Assembly: GCA_014376645.1 (NCBI GenBank)
Contig: JACMRD010000052.1
Span: forward strand, 1 to 35,033
DNA from: Herminiimonas sp.
GTDB taxonomy: Bacteria > Pseudomonadota > Gammaproteobacteria > Burkholderiales > Burkholderiaceae_D
Direction: 5' to 3'
DNA length: 35,033 nt
Shown: one piece after another, positions 12,692 through 34,001 of the stretch
Position numbering within the stretch: position 1 is the stretch's first letter
How the letters are laid out: each line of letters opens with the position of its first letter
The notes under the pieces: generated by a model
The model's database searches: none
Seen by the model: only the letters and a program-made list of their open reading frames with translations
What the model was told of the DNA's origin: nothing
Position numbers and translations under genes: made by a program

Positions 12692-14062
12692 CTAGCCCTG
12701 CAATGCCGAGAACGGAATGAACTGCACCATGTCACCAACGTTGATGGTACGGCCGGCCGGATTGTCGATCAGCCCATCGCCCCATACCGTCGAGGTCAGC
12801 ACACCGGAACTCTGGTTGGCAAACAGCTCTAGGCCGCCTTGATCGTTGATGCGGGCGCGCAGGAACTCGTTGCGCCGGTCCGCCTTGGGCCAGCTGAAAT
12901 CGGCACGCATCGCATAGGTTTTCGGCAGCACGTCCTGCACGCCCTGAAGCCGCAGCATGAAGGGCCGCACGAACAGCAGGAATGTGACGAAGCTCGATAC
13001 CGGATTGCCCGGCAGCCCGAGAAAGAAGGCATGGCCGTCCAGACCGTTTTCATCATCGCCCTGACGCCGCACGCGCCGCACCTCGCCGAACGCAAGCGGC
13101 TTGCCCGGCTTGACGGCGATCTGCCACATGTTCAGCCGCCCTTCGACTTCCACCGCCGGCTTGATGTGATCTTCCTCGCCTACCGAGACGCCACCCGAGG
13201 TGATGATCAGGTCGTGTTCGCGCGCCGCGCGCCGCAATGTGTCCCGGGTTGCGCTCAGCGTATCGGGGACGATGCCGAAATCGGTCAGCTCGCAGCCCAG
13301 ATTTTCCAGCAGTCCGCGCAGCATGAAGCGGTTGGAATTGTAGATGGCGCCCGGCTTGAGCACCTCGCCCGGCATGGCCAGTTCGTCGCCGGTGAAGAAC
13401 ACGGCGACCCGCAGCTTGCGCACCAGCGGCAGGCCGGCCAACCCGACCGACGCTGCCAGACCGAGCTCCTGCGCCCGCAGCCGGGTGCCGGCCGCCAGGA
13501 TTTCATCACCGGCACGGATGTCTTCACCAGCGCGACGGATCCAGTCGCCCACTGCCGGTACATGGCGCACGATCACATGGTCGCCGCTGGCGTCACTCTG
13601 GGCTTCGCAGGCTTCCTGCATCACGACCGCATCGGCGCCGGGTGGAATCATCGCACCAGTAAAGATCCTGGCGGCGGTGCCGGGCAACAGCGCGGCACCG
13701 ACGTGGCCGGCGGGAATCCGTTGCGTGACCTGCAACCGCGCACTGCCCGAGACGCAATCGGCGGCCCGTACCGCATAGCCATCCATCTGCGTATTGTCCA
13801 TCGGCGGCACGTCGAGCTGCGAAGCTTGCGCCAGCGCCAGCACGCGGCCGTTGGCGGCAAGCGTCGGTTCGGTTTCATGCGCCGCGCGAACGGCGGTGTG
13901 GGCGTCGGCCGCAGCAAGCAGGAAGGCCCGTGCTTCAGCCACGCTGAGCATCGGCGGCTTGCCTGAAGGCGGCACCGCTGTTGCTGCTGTTGCTGCTGTC
14001 GCTGCTGTCGCTGCTGTCGCTGCTGTCGTTGTGATTGGCGTCGTGCCCATGCCCTTGCTCAC
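12692..14062 (-). CDS. moeA: Molybdopterin molybdenumtransferase MoeA
   Basis: 456 residues from GTG. MoeA ligates molybdate to molybdopterin from adenylylated molybdopterin, the last step of basic molybdenum cofactor synthesis. Marks in order: MLSVAEARAFLL near the start of the conserved part, PPMDNTQMDGYAVRAAD (about residues 86-102), the domain II region with PGTAARIFTGAMIPPGADAVV, then the MoCF-binding-like domain III with FFTGDEL, YNSNRFML, ITSGGVSVGEEDHIKP and LPGNPVSSFV. The GTG at 14062 overlaps the thrC stop (GTGA); an ATG four codons later is an alternative start. Residues about 11-28 are a Thr/Ala repeat (AAT units) absent from the usual family N-terminus and encoded by a 9-bp tandem repeat. 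Confidence 0.96.
   Translation of the reverse strand: MSKGMGTTPITTTAATAATAATAATAATAVPPSGKPPMLSVAEARAFLLAAADAHTAVRAAHETEPTLAANGRVLALAQASQLDVPPMDNTQMDGYAVRAADCVSGSARLQVTQRIPAGHVGAALLPGTAARIFTGAMIPPGADAVVMQEACEAQSDASGDHVIVRHVPAVGDWIRRAGEDIRAGDEILAAGTRLRAQELGLAASVGLAGLPLVRKLRVAVFFTGDELAMPGEVLKPGAIYNSNRFMLRGLLENLGCELTDFGIVPDTLSATRDTLRRAAREHDLIITSGGVSVGEEDHIKPAVEVEGRLNMWQIAVKPGKPLAFGEVRRVRRQGDDENGLDGHAFFLGLPGNPVSSFVTFLLFVRPFMLRLQGVQDVLPKTYAMRADFSWPKADRRNEFLRARINDQGGLELFANQSSGVLTSTVWGDGLIDNPAGRTINVGDMVQFIPFSALQG
13977..14030. repeat. Six-copy 9-bp tandem repeat inside moeA
   Basis: Six consecutive units read on the plus strand as GCTGTTGCT (two), GCTGTCGCT (three) and GCTGTCGTT (one). They encode repeated Ala-Ala-Thr near the MoeA N-terminus. 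Because the unit is 9 bp, copy changes would keep the frame. Confidence 0.9.
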
Positions 14063-26425: not shown

Positions 26426-26935
26426 GTGGCAGAAGAAGCTGTTTCACCCCCATTCGCCGCAGGCGCCGAACCGTTATCCGCGCTGAACATGATTGTTCCG
26501 GAATTCACGGCGAACATGACCGGCGGGCGACCCTTCACCCTGTCGGAGTACCGCGACAAGACCCTGGTGCTGTATTTTTATCCAAAAGACAATACACCCG
26601 GCTGCACCACCGAGGCGATCAATTTCCGCGACCTGTATCCGGACTTCGAGCGCACCAATACCGAAATCGTCGGTATCAGCCGCGACTCCATGCGTTCGCA
26701 CGAAGGCTTCAAGGTGAAACTGGACCTGCCGTTCGAGCTGATTTCAGACCCTGACGAAACGCTGTGCCTGCTCTTCAACGTCATGAAGATAAAGAGCATG
26801 TACGGCAAAAAAGTGCGCGGTGTCGAGCGCTCCACCTTTGTCATTGACGGCAACGGCAGATTGGTGAAAGAATGGCGTGGACTGAAAGTGCCAGCGCATG
26901 TCGATAATGTCCTGGCGTTCGTGCAGGACCGCTGA
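26426..26935 (+). CDS. PrxQ/Bcp-type peroxiredoxin
   Basis: 169 residues. Thiol peroxidase of the bacterioferritin comigratory protein group, reducing hydrogen peroxide and organic peroxides. The peroxidatic Cys60 is in YPKDNTPGCTTEA; the supporting Arg lies in GVERSTFVI (about 132-140). In E. coli Bcp the resolving Cys is five residues after the peroxidatic one; here that place is Ile65. The only other Cys is Cys114 (ETLCLLF), so this is either a 1-Cys enzyme or resolves through an unusual partner. The start is GTG, supported by AGGAGA 5 bases upstream. The first 20 residues are an extension before the thioredoxin fold. It stands alone after arnD. Confidence 0.92.
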   Translation: MAEEAVSPPFAAGAEPLSALNMIVPEFTANMTGGRPFTLSEYRDKTLVLYFYPKDNTPGCTTEAINFRDLYPDFERTNTEIVGISRDSMRSHEGFKVKLDLPFELISDPDETLCLLFNVMKIKSMYGKKVRGVERSTFVIDGNGRLVKEWRGLKVPAHVDNVLAFVQDR

Positions 26936-27084
26936 TTCACCACTCTATTCGAGGCCAACGGATCATTCCTCCCACTGTTTCGACACCGCGTCGACGTCCA
27001 TTGCCACGCTGCGCTCCTGACCTCACTGGCGGAATCCGTTTGCCAGGCGGGTCGACTTTCACAGCTTGTAATCGGAGTGGGATT

Positions 27085-27140
27085 CAAAGCCGATTTCAAA
27101 GCCGATTTCAAAGCCGATTTCAAAGCCGATTTCAAAGCCG
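27085..27140. repeat. 12-bp tandem repeat, about 4.7 copies
   Basis: Four identical copies of CAAAGCCGATTT followed by a partial fifth (CAAAGCCG). An imperfect start, GATT, precedes the first copy. The 12-bp unit would encode four-residue repeats in any frame, but no convincing gene covers it. Confidence 0.95.
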
Positions 27141-30841: not shown

Positions 30842-32227
30842 TCAGTCGCCCTGGTAGAGCGCCGCGCCGCCGGTGTAATTGTCGAATTTTGTGTACTGTC
30901 CGAGGAAGGTCAGGCGAACGCTGCCGATCGGGCCATTACGCTGCTTGCCGATGATGATTTCGGCCGTGCCTTTGTCCTGCGAATCAGGGTTGTAGACCTC
31001 GTCGCGATAGATGAAAAGAATAACGTCGGCATCCTGCTCAATGGCGCCGGATTCACGCAGATCGGACATGACGGGACGCTTGTTGGGACGCTGTTCCAGC
31101 GAGCGGTTCAACTGTGAGAGTGCGATCACCGGGCAATTCAATTCCTTGGCCAGGCTTTTCAGGCTGCGCGAGATTTCTGAAATCTCGGTCGCGCGGTTTT
31201 CGCCCGAGGAGTTGGCCGACATCAGTTGCAGGTAATCGATGATGATCAGACCGAGCTTGCCGCACTGGCGGGACAGACGCCGCGAGCGGGCGCGCAGTTC
31301 GATCGAATTAAGCGCCGGTGTCTCGTCGATGTAAAGCTGAGCATCGTTCATCTTCTGGATCGCATGCGTCAGGCGCGGCCAGTCTTCGTCGGCCAGGCGA
31401 CCAGTGCGCAGACGGTGCTGATCGAGCCGACCGACCGAGCCCAGCATCCGCATGGCCAGCTGCGTGCCGCCCATCTCCATCGAGAACACGGCCACTGGCA
31501 AGCCACTTTCAATGGCCACGTGTTCGCCAATATTAATCGAGAACGCGGTCTTGCCCATGGAGGGACGGCCGGCGACGATCACCAGGTCGCCCGGCTGCAG
31601 GCCCGAAGTCATGCGGTCGAGATCGACGAATCCGGTCGGCACACCCGTGATGTCGTTTTGTCCCTCGCGATTGTAGAGCTCGTCGATGCGCTCGACGACC
31701 TGGGTCAGAAGCGGCTGGATCTCCTGGAAGCCCTGGGCGCCGCGCGAGCCTTCTTCCGCAATCGCGAAGATCTTCGACTCGGCTTCGTCGAGCATCTGCT
31801 TGACTTCCTTGCCCTGCGGGTTGAAGGCCTGGCCGGAGATTTCGTCGGAGACGGTGATGAGCTTGCGCAGCACGCCGCGGTCGCGCACGATCTCGGCATA
31901 GCGGCGGATGTTGGCCGCTGACGGCGTGTTTTGCGCCAGCGCGTTCAGGTAACTCAGGCCACCGACTTCCTCTGCCTTGCCGGTACTGACCAGCGATTCG
32001 TAGACCGTGATGACGTCGGCCGGACGCGAACCGTTGATCAGCTTGACGATGTGCTGGAAGATGACCCGGTGATCGTAGCGATAGAAATCGTCCTGATGCA
32101 CGAAGTCCGCGATCCGGTCCCATGCAGCATTGTCCAGCAACAGACCACCGAGGACGGATTGTTCTGCTTCGATCGAGTGCGGCGGTACACGAAGGGAATC
32201 AAGCTGGGGATCGGCGCGGGTATTCAT
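30842..32227 (-). CDS. dnaB: Replicative DNA helicase DnaB
   Basis: 461 residues. Hexameric helicase that unwinds the fork and recruits primase. The N-terminal helical domain starts with PPHSIEAEQSVLGGLLLDN (15-33). A linker near 160-200 leads to the RecA-like ATPase with Walker A AGRPSMGKT (219-227), Walker B LGLIIIDYLQLM (about 325-336) and the Arg finger region HSLRESGAIEQDAD-like segment, here SDLRESGAIEQDAD. No intein is present. ATG at 32227 is preferred over one 8 codons upstream because the conserved part begins shortly after. It is separated from rplI by the terminator at 32368-32392, so it probably has its own promoter. Confidence 0.97.
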   Translation of the reverse strand: MNTRADPQLDSLRVPPHSIEAEQSVLGGLLLDNAAWDRIADFVHQDDFYRYDHRVIFQHIVKLINGSRPADVITVYESLVSTGKAEEVGGLSYLNALAQNTPSAANIRRYAEIVRDRGVLRKLITVSDEISGQAFNPQGKEVKQMLDEAESKIFAIAEEGSRGAQGFQEIQPLLTQVVERIDELYNREGQNDITGVPTGFVDLDRMTSGLQPGDLVIVAGRPSMGKTAFSINIGEHVAIESGLPVAVFSMEMGGTQLAMRMLGSVGRLDQHRLRTGRLADEDWPRLTHAIQKMNDAQLYIDETPALNSIELRARSRRLSRQCGKLGLIIIDYLQLMSANSSGENRATEISEISRSLKSLAKELNCPVIALSQLNRSLEQRPNKRPVMSDLRESGAIEQDADVILFIYRDEVYNPDSQDKGTAEIIIGKQRNGPIGSVRLTFLGQYTKFDNYTGGAALYQGD

Positions 32228-32367
32228 GGCCGCGATTATACCCGCTCGCACCCTGCCCTTGCCCTTGCTCGTGTGAATTTAATGACGACGAAAACGATTG
32301 CCCGACGCCGGCGCCGGCGGCAGGCCGGAGGCTCATCGAGACATGCGACCACACGGGCCCGGAACAC

Positions 32368-32439: not shown

Positions 32440-32892
32440 TTAAGCGTGCTCGCCCAAAACGGCAATGGTGATCTCGACGATGACATCGGTGTGCAACGCG
32501 ACCGACACAGCATGGTCGCCAACGGTCTTCAGGGGGCCCAGCGGCATGCGGACCTGAGCCTTCTCGACCGGGAAACCCTGCTTCGTCAACGCTTCAGCGA
32601 TGTCGGCATTGGTAACCGAACCGAACAGACGGCCATCGACACCGGCTTTTTGCGAAACCTGAACGGTCAGACCGGCCAGTTTCTCGCCTTGTGCCTGCGA
32701 TGCGGCCAGCTTGGCGGCAGCAGCTTTTTCGAGCTCGACACGCTTGGCTTCGAATTCGGCCACTGCGGTAGTGGTGGCACGACGGGCCATGCGCTGCGGG
32801 ATCAGGAAGTTACGGGCATAACCGTCCTTGACCTTGACGACTTCACCGAGGTTGCCGAGATTGACGACTTTTTCTAACAGAATGACTTGCAT
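32440..32892 (-). CDS. rplI: Ribosomal protein bL9
   Basis: 150 residues. Large-subunit protein with two RNA-binding domains joined by a long helix. N-domain: [30 protein letters not shown] pattern with the GYARNFLIP signature near residues 24-32. Linker helix about 40-75 rich in Ala, Glu and Lys. C-domain with [11 protein letters not shown] and [14 protein letters not shown]. Length matches E. coli (149). It starts 22 bases after rpsR and ends the rpsF operon. Confidence 0.98.
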
Positions 32893-32914: not shown

Positions 32915-33205
32915 TTAAGCGGTGTGCAGATCGGTGTACGGCAACAGCGCGAGGAAGCGAGCGCGCTTGATGGCGGTATCGACCTGGCGCTGGTAGTGCG
33001 CCTTGGTGCCGGTCAGGCGGGCTGGCATGATCTTGCCGTTTTCCTGGACAAAATCCTTGAGCGTGTCGACGTCCTTGTAATCGACCTGTTCAACGTGCGC
33101 TGCGGTGAAACGGCAGAACTTCTTACGCTTGAACAGCGGATTTTGTTGTTTGCGTTTTTCTTTAAGCTTGAGCTTGTTCTTGTCGAACTTTTTACCGAAT
33201 GCCAT
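32915..33205 (-). CDS. rpsR: Ribosomal protein bS18
   Basis: 96 residues. Small-subunit protein that pairs with bS6 on the platform. The conserved core is [23 protein letters not shown] (start about residue 27) and the basic end [18 protein letters not shown]. It is about 20 residues longer than E. coli S18 because of a Lys-rich N-terminal extension ([15 protein letters not shown]). The start is preceded by AGGAG. It lies 26 bases after priB. Confidence 0.97.
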
Positions 33206-33231: not shown

Positions 33232-33600
33232 CTAGATTGTGGTTGAGTCGAAATCAGCGATCTCGAAATCAGCGATGTCGAAGTCAGTAATGTGAAACAC
33301 CAGGCCTTTACTGTTGCGATTCCTGCGTGCCAGAAAACCCGTGAAGTGAAACGTTCCGCCCAATGCTGCCTGGCTGAACCGCCCCGAAATTTCGCCAGCG
33401 GCAAGCGCTGCGATATCGAACTCGACCAACCGCTCCATGCCGGCTTCCTTCTGCTTCGACTGGTGATGCAGCCTTGCCGACACCATCGGGATACCCGCAG
33501 GTGTGTAGCGCAAGCTGTCGCGTTCGGCAATCGAGGCAACGAACTGAAGCTGATTTTGAAGCGGATTCTGAAGCAAAGCCCGTGCTTCGGGTCGCGTCAC
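33232..33600 (-). CDS. priB: Primosomal replication protein N (PriB) with repeated ends
   Basis: 122 residues from GTG. PriB is an OB-fold ssDNA-binding protein that helps PriA restart stalled forks. The core [23 protein letters not shown] (20-42) and [22 protein letters not shown] (82-103) are clearly PriB. Canonical PriB begins about MNQLQ; here that spot reads NQLQ preceded by NPLQ and LQ (residues 10-19), with no Met, and the only starts in frame after the TGA at 33628-33630 are GTG 33600 and TTG 33576, neither with a Shine-Dalgarno. The end, [15 protein letters not shown] (105-119), is a triple 5-residue repeat giving an acidic tail. It sits between rpsF and rpsR as usual. Confidence 0.9.
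33244..33288. repeat. Three-copy 15-bp repeat at the priB 3' end
   Basis: Three units of 15 bp encode [10 protein letters not shown] and ADFDS. On the minus strand the unit is close to GCTGATTTCGAGATC. Confidence 0.85.
33544..33573. repeat. 2.5-copy 12-bp repeat at the priB 5' end
   Basis: On the minus strand CTTCAG, AATCCGCTTCAA, AATCAGCTTCAG. These encode LQ, NPLQ and NQLQ, a duplicated form of the usual PriB N-terminus. Confidence 0.8.
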
Positions 33601-33632: not shown

Positions 33633-34001
33633 TCAGGCAGCCGGTGCTTCGGTACGATGACTCTTGGCGGCGTCTTCTTTCTGGACGGCCTTCATCATCG
33701 GCGACGGTGCTGTTTCGGCTTTCTTCATTTTCACGGTCAGATGACGCAGAACGGCATCGTTGAATTTGAAGCCAGTTTCGATTTCGACCAGAGTCTCGTT
33801 GTCGCATTCGATGTTGATGCAGACATAGTGCGCCTTGGCCAGTTTCTGGACCATGTACGCCATCTGACGACGACCCCAATCTTCGACACGGTGGACCTTG
33901 CCGCCATGGGTGGCGACGATCGCCTTGTAACGCTCGATCATCGCGGGCACTTGCTCGCTCTGATCGGGATGGACGATAAATACGATTTCATAATGACGCA
34001 T
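33633..34001 (-). CDS. rpsF: Ribosomal protein bS6
   Basis: 122 residues. Small-subunit platform protein that binds bS18. It begins [19 protein letters not shown] and contains [26 protein letters not shown] (about 38-63), both hallmarks of bS6. A C-terminal tail of about 25 residues, rich in Ala, Glu, Lys and Pro, follows the fold. The frame is open upstream to 34250 but the family start is at 34001, with AGGAG 7 bases upstream. It is the first gene of rpsF-priB-rpsR-rplI. Confidence 0.98.

Follow-up and report, generated by a model that had tools for sequence, protein, structure and literature searches.

The priB gene of this Herminiimonas sp. raises the question of why a conserved replication protein should carry tandem repeats at both of its ends and lack a start codon at the position where most of its relatives begin. 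The gene lies in a window of 35,033 nucleotides, by which we mean the whole stretch of DNA that was analysed (positions 1-35,033 of contig JACMRD010000052.1, assembly GCA_014376645.1, a draft that comprises 320 contigs, totals 3.38 Mb and has a completeness of 89.5%). We consider it probable that the locus encodes an ordinary PriB whose two loosely constrained ends grew longer within this lineage as short units were duplicated in tandem and in frame, replication slippage being the most likely cause.

Table 1. Coordinates of the genes, repeat arrays and candidate start codons at the priB locus (window positions)
Feature	Position	Strand	Remarks	Basis
priB (primosomal replication protein N)	33232..33600	(-)	longest form 122 aa from GTG 33600	
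rpsF (ribosomal protein S6)	33633..34001	(-)	upstream neighbour	sequence; tblastn
rpsR (ribosomal protein S18)	32915..33205	(-)	downstream neighbour	
rplI (ribosomal protein L9)	32440..32892	(-)		
dnaB (replicative helicase)	30842..32251	(-)		
N-terminal 12-bp array	33544..33573	(-)	about 2.5 units	TRF; shuffle frequency 0.0001
C-terminal 15-bp array	33247..33291	(-)	three units	TRF; 0/20,000 shuffles
TTG	33574..33576	(-)	candidate start at head of N-terminal array (114 aa form)	sequence
GTG	33598..33600	(-)	alternative candidate start	sequence

A reading made earlier from the sequence only had assigned the gene, its strand and its frame correctly. It sits between rpsF and rpsR, in the order rpsF-priB-rpsR-rplI, which is the usual one and is followed by dnaB, and it gave a single match within the assembly; the neighbouring rpsF is 87-95% identical to loci L002-L030 by tblastn. 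The product scored 118.7 bits against PF22657 (cut-off 27) and 99.7 bits against TIGR04418 (cut-off 72) and matched PriB chains of the PDB entries 3en2 (E 4.9e-21) and 4fdb (E 6.7e-21). Among 14 named PriB relatives, five carry the label Oxalobacteraceae and another three that of Herminiimonas or Janthinobacterium, genera that we take to be members of the Oxalobacteraceae, and the four best of the 14 fall among those so labelled. In the same-genus genome G001 neither priB nor its neighbours rpsR and rpsF were matched, and no same-genus priB was found.

The N-terminal array, which reads CTTCAGAATCCG-CTTCAAAATCAG-CTTCAG in the direction of the gene, was reported by TRF at 33544-33574 with a period of 12, 2.6 copies and 84% matches. 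The C-terminal array was reported at 33247-33287 with a period of 15, 2.7 copies and 88% matches, and is best framed as the units 33291-33277, 33276-33262 and 33261-33247, which read ATTACTGACTTCGAC-ATCGCTGATTTCGAG-ATCGCTGATTTCGAC and are followed by STTI and the stop codon. The first of these units corresponds to the strand-end motif FH-I/L/V-x-D-F, present as a single copy in most relatives. In 20,000 codon shuffles of priB the N-terminal score was reached at the frequency given in Table 1, the C-terminal score never and both jointly never; among 150 family genomes, this one included, the self-repeat scores of the two ends (12 and 19, for the N- and C-terminal end respectively) were the highest, with runners-up of 9 and 10. 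The N-terminal repeat that the sequence-only reading had placed at 33544-33573 is thus real, and so are the three 15-bp units at the other end, although these had been located at 33244-33288, which is 3 bp off. Repeats shared by all relatives, which would have spoken against the sequence-only reading, did not turn up: the other 149 genomes are without arrays this strong. Tandem duplication, as was then proposed, is the best account of both ends.

Between the arrays the protein is well preserved. An AlphaFold model built from 46 sequences predicts the OB fold confidently and both terminal additions with low confidence: mean pLDDT values of ten-residue blocks are 89-98 across residues 21-110, with strands located between residues 18 and 109, as against 74 for block 11-20 and 54-57 for residues 1-10 and 111-122. 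In a Foldseek search with this model, ranks 1-18 were all PriB structures, the best being 4fdb (E 5.5e-11, TMt 0.88). Residues E39 and R44 of E. coli PriB, described in a passage of PMC10175261 as required for PriA binding, align with E52 and R57 of the Herminiimonas protein, and among 46 family sequences R57 shows no variation, while conservation of E52 is at least 90%; judged from this alignment, the OB-fold core retains the PriA-binding residues. Passages of the same paper state that PriB termini adjoin each other in crystal structures and that E. coli PriB dimers fused directly, C-terminus to next N-terminus, still work, which suggests that terminal additions are tolerated.

Compared with PriB of Oxalobacteraceae and other Betaproteobacteria (PF22657/TIGR04418; PDB 3en2, 4fdb, 3klw and 3k8a), the OB-fold core is alike, and the operon order, the strand end FHI-x-DF, a mostly non-AUG start and a poor ribosome site are held in common, whereas here LQNPLQ (or more) precedes NQLQ, the tail motif is triplicated and the tail exceeds those of the other 149 genomes in acidity. 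E. coli PriB is 22% identical to the Herminiimonas protein; its gene starts with ATG 6 nt past the rpsF stop (E. coli coordinates from PMC4647458) and is without such repeats, but the PriA-binding residues align and its C-terminal end is likewise acidic.

A family search matched priB in 182 of 195 genomes, of which 150 were read (30 loci and 120 fetched stretches, with this genome among them); the other 32 matching genomes, and 14 named loci that were inspected, stand outside the family counts. In 118 of the 150 the codon preceding NQLQ could serve as a start (GTG in 93, CTG in 18, ATG in five and TTG in two), and in the remaining 32 the usual position holds no start codon; as these sequences indicate, the start position of priB is labile in the family. 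In the Herminiimonas gene this codon is CAA. The sequence-only reading had noted as much, along with a TTG at 33576-33574, and the sequence confirms both, but it derived CAA from an original ATG, a candidate that the family counts rule out as the ancestral start. Its conclusion that initiation has moved is retained in so far as no start codon directly precedes NQLQ, and translation would then begin further upstream, with both TTG 33576 and GTG 33600 as candidates.

GTG 33600 lies 32 nt past the rpsF stop and shows no anti-Shine-Dalgarno pairing (+0.4 kcal/mol), and TTG 33576 lies 56 nt past it with weak pairing (-3.8 kcal/mol). Given that the spacing between the rpsF stop and the priB start has a median of 24 and a 95th percentile of 58 (in the 93 of 150 genomes with a locatable rpsF stop), both candidates fit. 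Alignment of the 24 nt upstream of TTG 33576 to 11 relatives, among them L003, which lacks a GTG at this place, gave a best p value of 0.08 (L013) and at least 0.42 for the others, so that homology to the family GTG was not established; nor was homology established for the context of GTG 33600 against four relatives (p 0.0095 for L009, then 0.19, 0.48 and 0.93, uncorrected). In a DNA alignment of the rpsF-priB spacer, most of the extra stretch found here faces gaps.

The missing Shine-Dalgarno sequence that had been noted for both starts is nothing special, a poor ribosome site being usual for priB in the family. Within 18 nt upstream of the 118 canonical starts, which are non-AUG in 113 cases, a Shine-Dalgarno 4-mer is absent in 47 and present only 1 nt before the start codon in 38, and pairing is weaker than that of TTG 33576 in 32, indicating that poor priB initiation is common in the family; rpsR, by contrast, has a Shine-Dalgarno at 5-8 nt in all 146 genomes with a recognised start. 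The E. coli rpsF-priB-rpsR-rplI operon is cited in a passage of PMC5318159 as an instance in which genes of low translation lie next to others that are translated better, although that passage does not specify which gene is the low one; the parts of PMC3533792 and PMC4647458 that deal with the operon have little bearing on the matter.

A displaced start is not unique to this gene. Insertions of four or five codons before NQLQ occur in seven other genera (g23, g28, g15, g29, g20, g32 and g38). A GTG four or five codons upstream, with the block between, is found in 11/11 genomes of g29, 5/5 of g15 (one with five codons), 2/12 of g23, 1/2 of g28 and one genome each of g20 and g32, while both g38 genomes that were read carry the inserted block without a GTG and have CTG as their likely, displaced start; in a third g38 genome priB was not matched. 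Other displaced starts are a CTG two codons upstream in three g41 genomes, differences of 3-8 codons in two genomes of g5 and one each of g19 and g42, and, in a single g27 genome, a TTG that lies far off.

Gains of the insertion were counted by hand on a tree of the operon proteins RpsF, RpsR, RplI and DnaB that covers the window together with 19 genomes of the family and three outgroups. Several of its supports are weak, and five genomes were entered without DnaB; a fetched g22 genome with too little sequence was dropped. If insertions are never lost, six gains besides that of the window are needed (g38, g23, g15 together with g29, g28, g20 and g32), whereas a count that admits losses needs no more than three (in g38, in g23 and at the root of the clade containing the other genera). 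By this hand count on a small tree, the inserted block would have arisen three to six separate times elsewhere.

Compared with the family start unit, the 12 bases before NQLQ gave p values of at most 0.01 in g38, g23, g20, g28 and one of the g15 members; the value was 0.04 in g32 and in a second member of g15, and 0.08 in g29. Compared with the 12 bases directly after it, the inserted block gave 0.03 and 0.005 in g38, 0.05 in g23 and 0.02 in g20, and was not significant in g28 (0.08), g32 (0.11), g15 (0.17-0.19) and g29 (0.8). These p values make an origin of the block by duplication clear for part of the lineages and no more than plausible for the others. The N-terminal double unit, searched in 392 genomes, matched 24 of them at 25 places; ten of these places were examined, and four proved to be priB (this genome, two g38 and one g20) while six had no priB match. 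One of the closest parallels is a g38 relative (locus L003, genome G086), where an extra block (NKLE) likewise precedes NQLQ and the tail contains a short tandem repeat, in this case of 9 bp (ETP-ETP); the repeat units, lengths and sequences differ from those of Herminiimonas, however, and block-free genera branch between the two on the operon tree, where supports are weak. Literature searches on PriB in Oxalobacteraceae, judged by title and beginning of the abstract, returned nothing bearing on the question, and those on duplication and start codons returned nothing relevant.

Similar arrays are abundant in the part of the genome that was sampled. At a TRF score of at least 48, 19 arrays were found in 169 kb (20 of the 320 contigs), that is 11.2 per 100 kb, with 6.4-9.6 in three relatives; the window outside priB held only two, a lower density than in the sampled contigs. 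Under random placement, two arrays in a gene of the length of priB have a probability of 0.0008 at 11.2 per 100 kb, corresponding to about 2.8 genes in an assumed 3300, and of 0.0002, or under one gene in an assumed 3300, at the density of the window outside priB. The notion that two arrays in one gene are improbable in themselves was set aside on the first of these expectations, the second being the lower one. The family sequences give no indication of a terminal repeat hot spot in priB: self-repeat scores of at least 9 occurred in two N-terminal, 14 core and three C-terminal stretches of 150 each, which is about equal per base. Taken together, the array density and the lability of the PriB ends across the family indicate that slippage without strong selection would explain both arrays.

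We therefore favour duplication by slippage, which could have proceeded as follows. At the 5' end the 12-bp unit of the family start (start codon-AAT-CAG-CTT-CAG) would have been repeated in a way that left no start codon directly before NQLQ and displaced initiation to TTG 33576 or GTG 33600. Initiation there is probably weak and may rely on ribosomes arriving from rpsF, and weak initiation would suit a low-abundance protein within an operon of ribosomal-protein genes. Triplication at the 3' end would have involved the codons with which the final beta strand closes (I-x-D-F-D/E). The additions are best pictured as flexible extensions whose effect is mild at most; they probably do little and would be nearly neutral.

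The repeats might instead be artefacts of assembly or sequencing, as the fragmented and incomplete draft and the lack of the same arrays in the other 149 genomes would allow; the copies differ from one another at several bases, which argues against simple assembly duplication, and since, moreover, the reading frame is open throughout, the operon order is normal and three relatives, like the sampled part of this genome, have comparable arrays in number, we regard an artefact as very unlikely. It is somewhat easier to imagine, although still rather unlikely, that the N-terminal array matters for expression and not for the protein, the shift of the start lowering PriB translation or coupling it to that of its neighbour. 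The family starts, mostly non-AUG and poorly placed in relation to the Shine-Dalgarno, the contrast with rpsR, the mention of the E. coli operon in PMC5318159 and the likely shift to CTG in two g38 relatives are all compatible with such a role, but two candidate starts are present here, and weak initiation is already so common in the family that the array need not be its cause.

A function for the triplicated acidic tail, which could compete with or guide ssDNA on PriB, or touch PriA, in the manner of the SSB tip or the DnaT linker, is improbable; the sequence-only reading had suggested that the tail might alter partner binding. The tail has the most negative net charge of the 150 (-6, the next being -4), an outlier that leaves room for selection, whereas its length of 18 residues after FHI is reached or exceeded in 14 of 150 tails (5th-95th percentile 4.9-20 residues). 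According to passages of PMC8509808, the SSB C-terminal domain increases ssDNA binding by Klebsiella PriB and raises its stimulation of the PriA ATPase (22-fold versus 15-fold), and the SSB tip, DDDIPF, is like the PriB tail an acidic peptide containing Asp and Phe that follows an OB fold. The PriB tail, however, follows the last strand immediately, with no long linker in between, and no terminal Ile-Pro-Phe or Pro-Phe of the SSB type was found in it (it ends ADFDSTTI*); the model has low confidence in this region, and E. coli PriB already ends in the acidic AEQIELIDSGD, so that acidity by itself is not new. With respect to DnaT, whose acidic linker in E. coli occupies the second basic groove of PriB according to a part of a preprint (PMC12871339), the 89.5%-complete assembly gave a match for PriA but none for the DnaT domain. 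One could suppose that in a cell without detected DnaT the I-x-D-F-D/E triplication acts as PriB's own peptide, docking in the free basic groove and taking the part of the DnaT linker in cis, an analogy to which we attach hardly any probability; that a peptide so docked would tune the engagement of ssDNA and PriA is, as part of the same idea, just as remote. The DnaT domain is unmatched in 58 of the 60 family genomes searched and found in two, yet the other 149 tails are less acidic, and lack of DnaT is thus not paired with such tails.

If slippage without strong selection is the right explanation, this gene is a calibration case in which a conserved replication protein bears striking terminal repeats for ordinary reasons. 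The recurrent N-terminal insertions at the same place in related genera form a small natural experiment on which ends of PriB vary freely. Should the acidic tail act after all, a restart protein would have gained a DNA-mimic peptide by simple slippage.

Elsewhere in the window, positions 13977-14028 hold a 9-bp array of 5.8 copies in the Ala/Thr-rich N-terminal extension of the minus-strand ORF 12692-14062, which we take to encode a MoeA-like protein, and at 27083-27140 there is a perfect array of a 12-bp unit in 4.8 copies, perhaps intergenic, past the end of ORF 26426-26935, presumably peroxiredoxin-like. The C-terminal end of PriB also takes unusual forms in other family members: in 15 of 150 genomes (L009, L016, L017, L051, L053, L056, L062, L063, L065, L087, L099, L107, L114, L117 and L118) the PriB frame continues past the ribosome site of rpsR and reaches its stop within that gene, out of frame with it, the tails ending ...NGIR, and in L068, L119 and L145 the protein terminates exactly at FHIIDF, with phenylalanine C-terminal.

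The 18 genomes with CTG at the priB start position belong to genera g6 and g41 (L046, L058-L060, L064, L066, L067, L069, L071, L074, L077, L079, L101, L103-L105, L115 and L122), and most have AGGA or AAGGA 6-7 nt upstream; judged from this context, CTG is likely their natural priB start. With starts that are mostly non-AUG and poorly placed, automatic annotation of the PriB start is likely to be unreliable, chiefly where CTG is the likely codon. In L003 the GTG usual in the family is replaced by GTA, and the inserted block contains a CTG that stands 10 nt past AGGAG (pairing -7.8 kcal/mol), so that in this relative the duplication may have supplied a new start codon.
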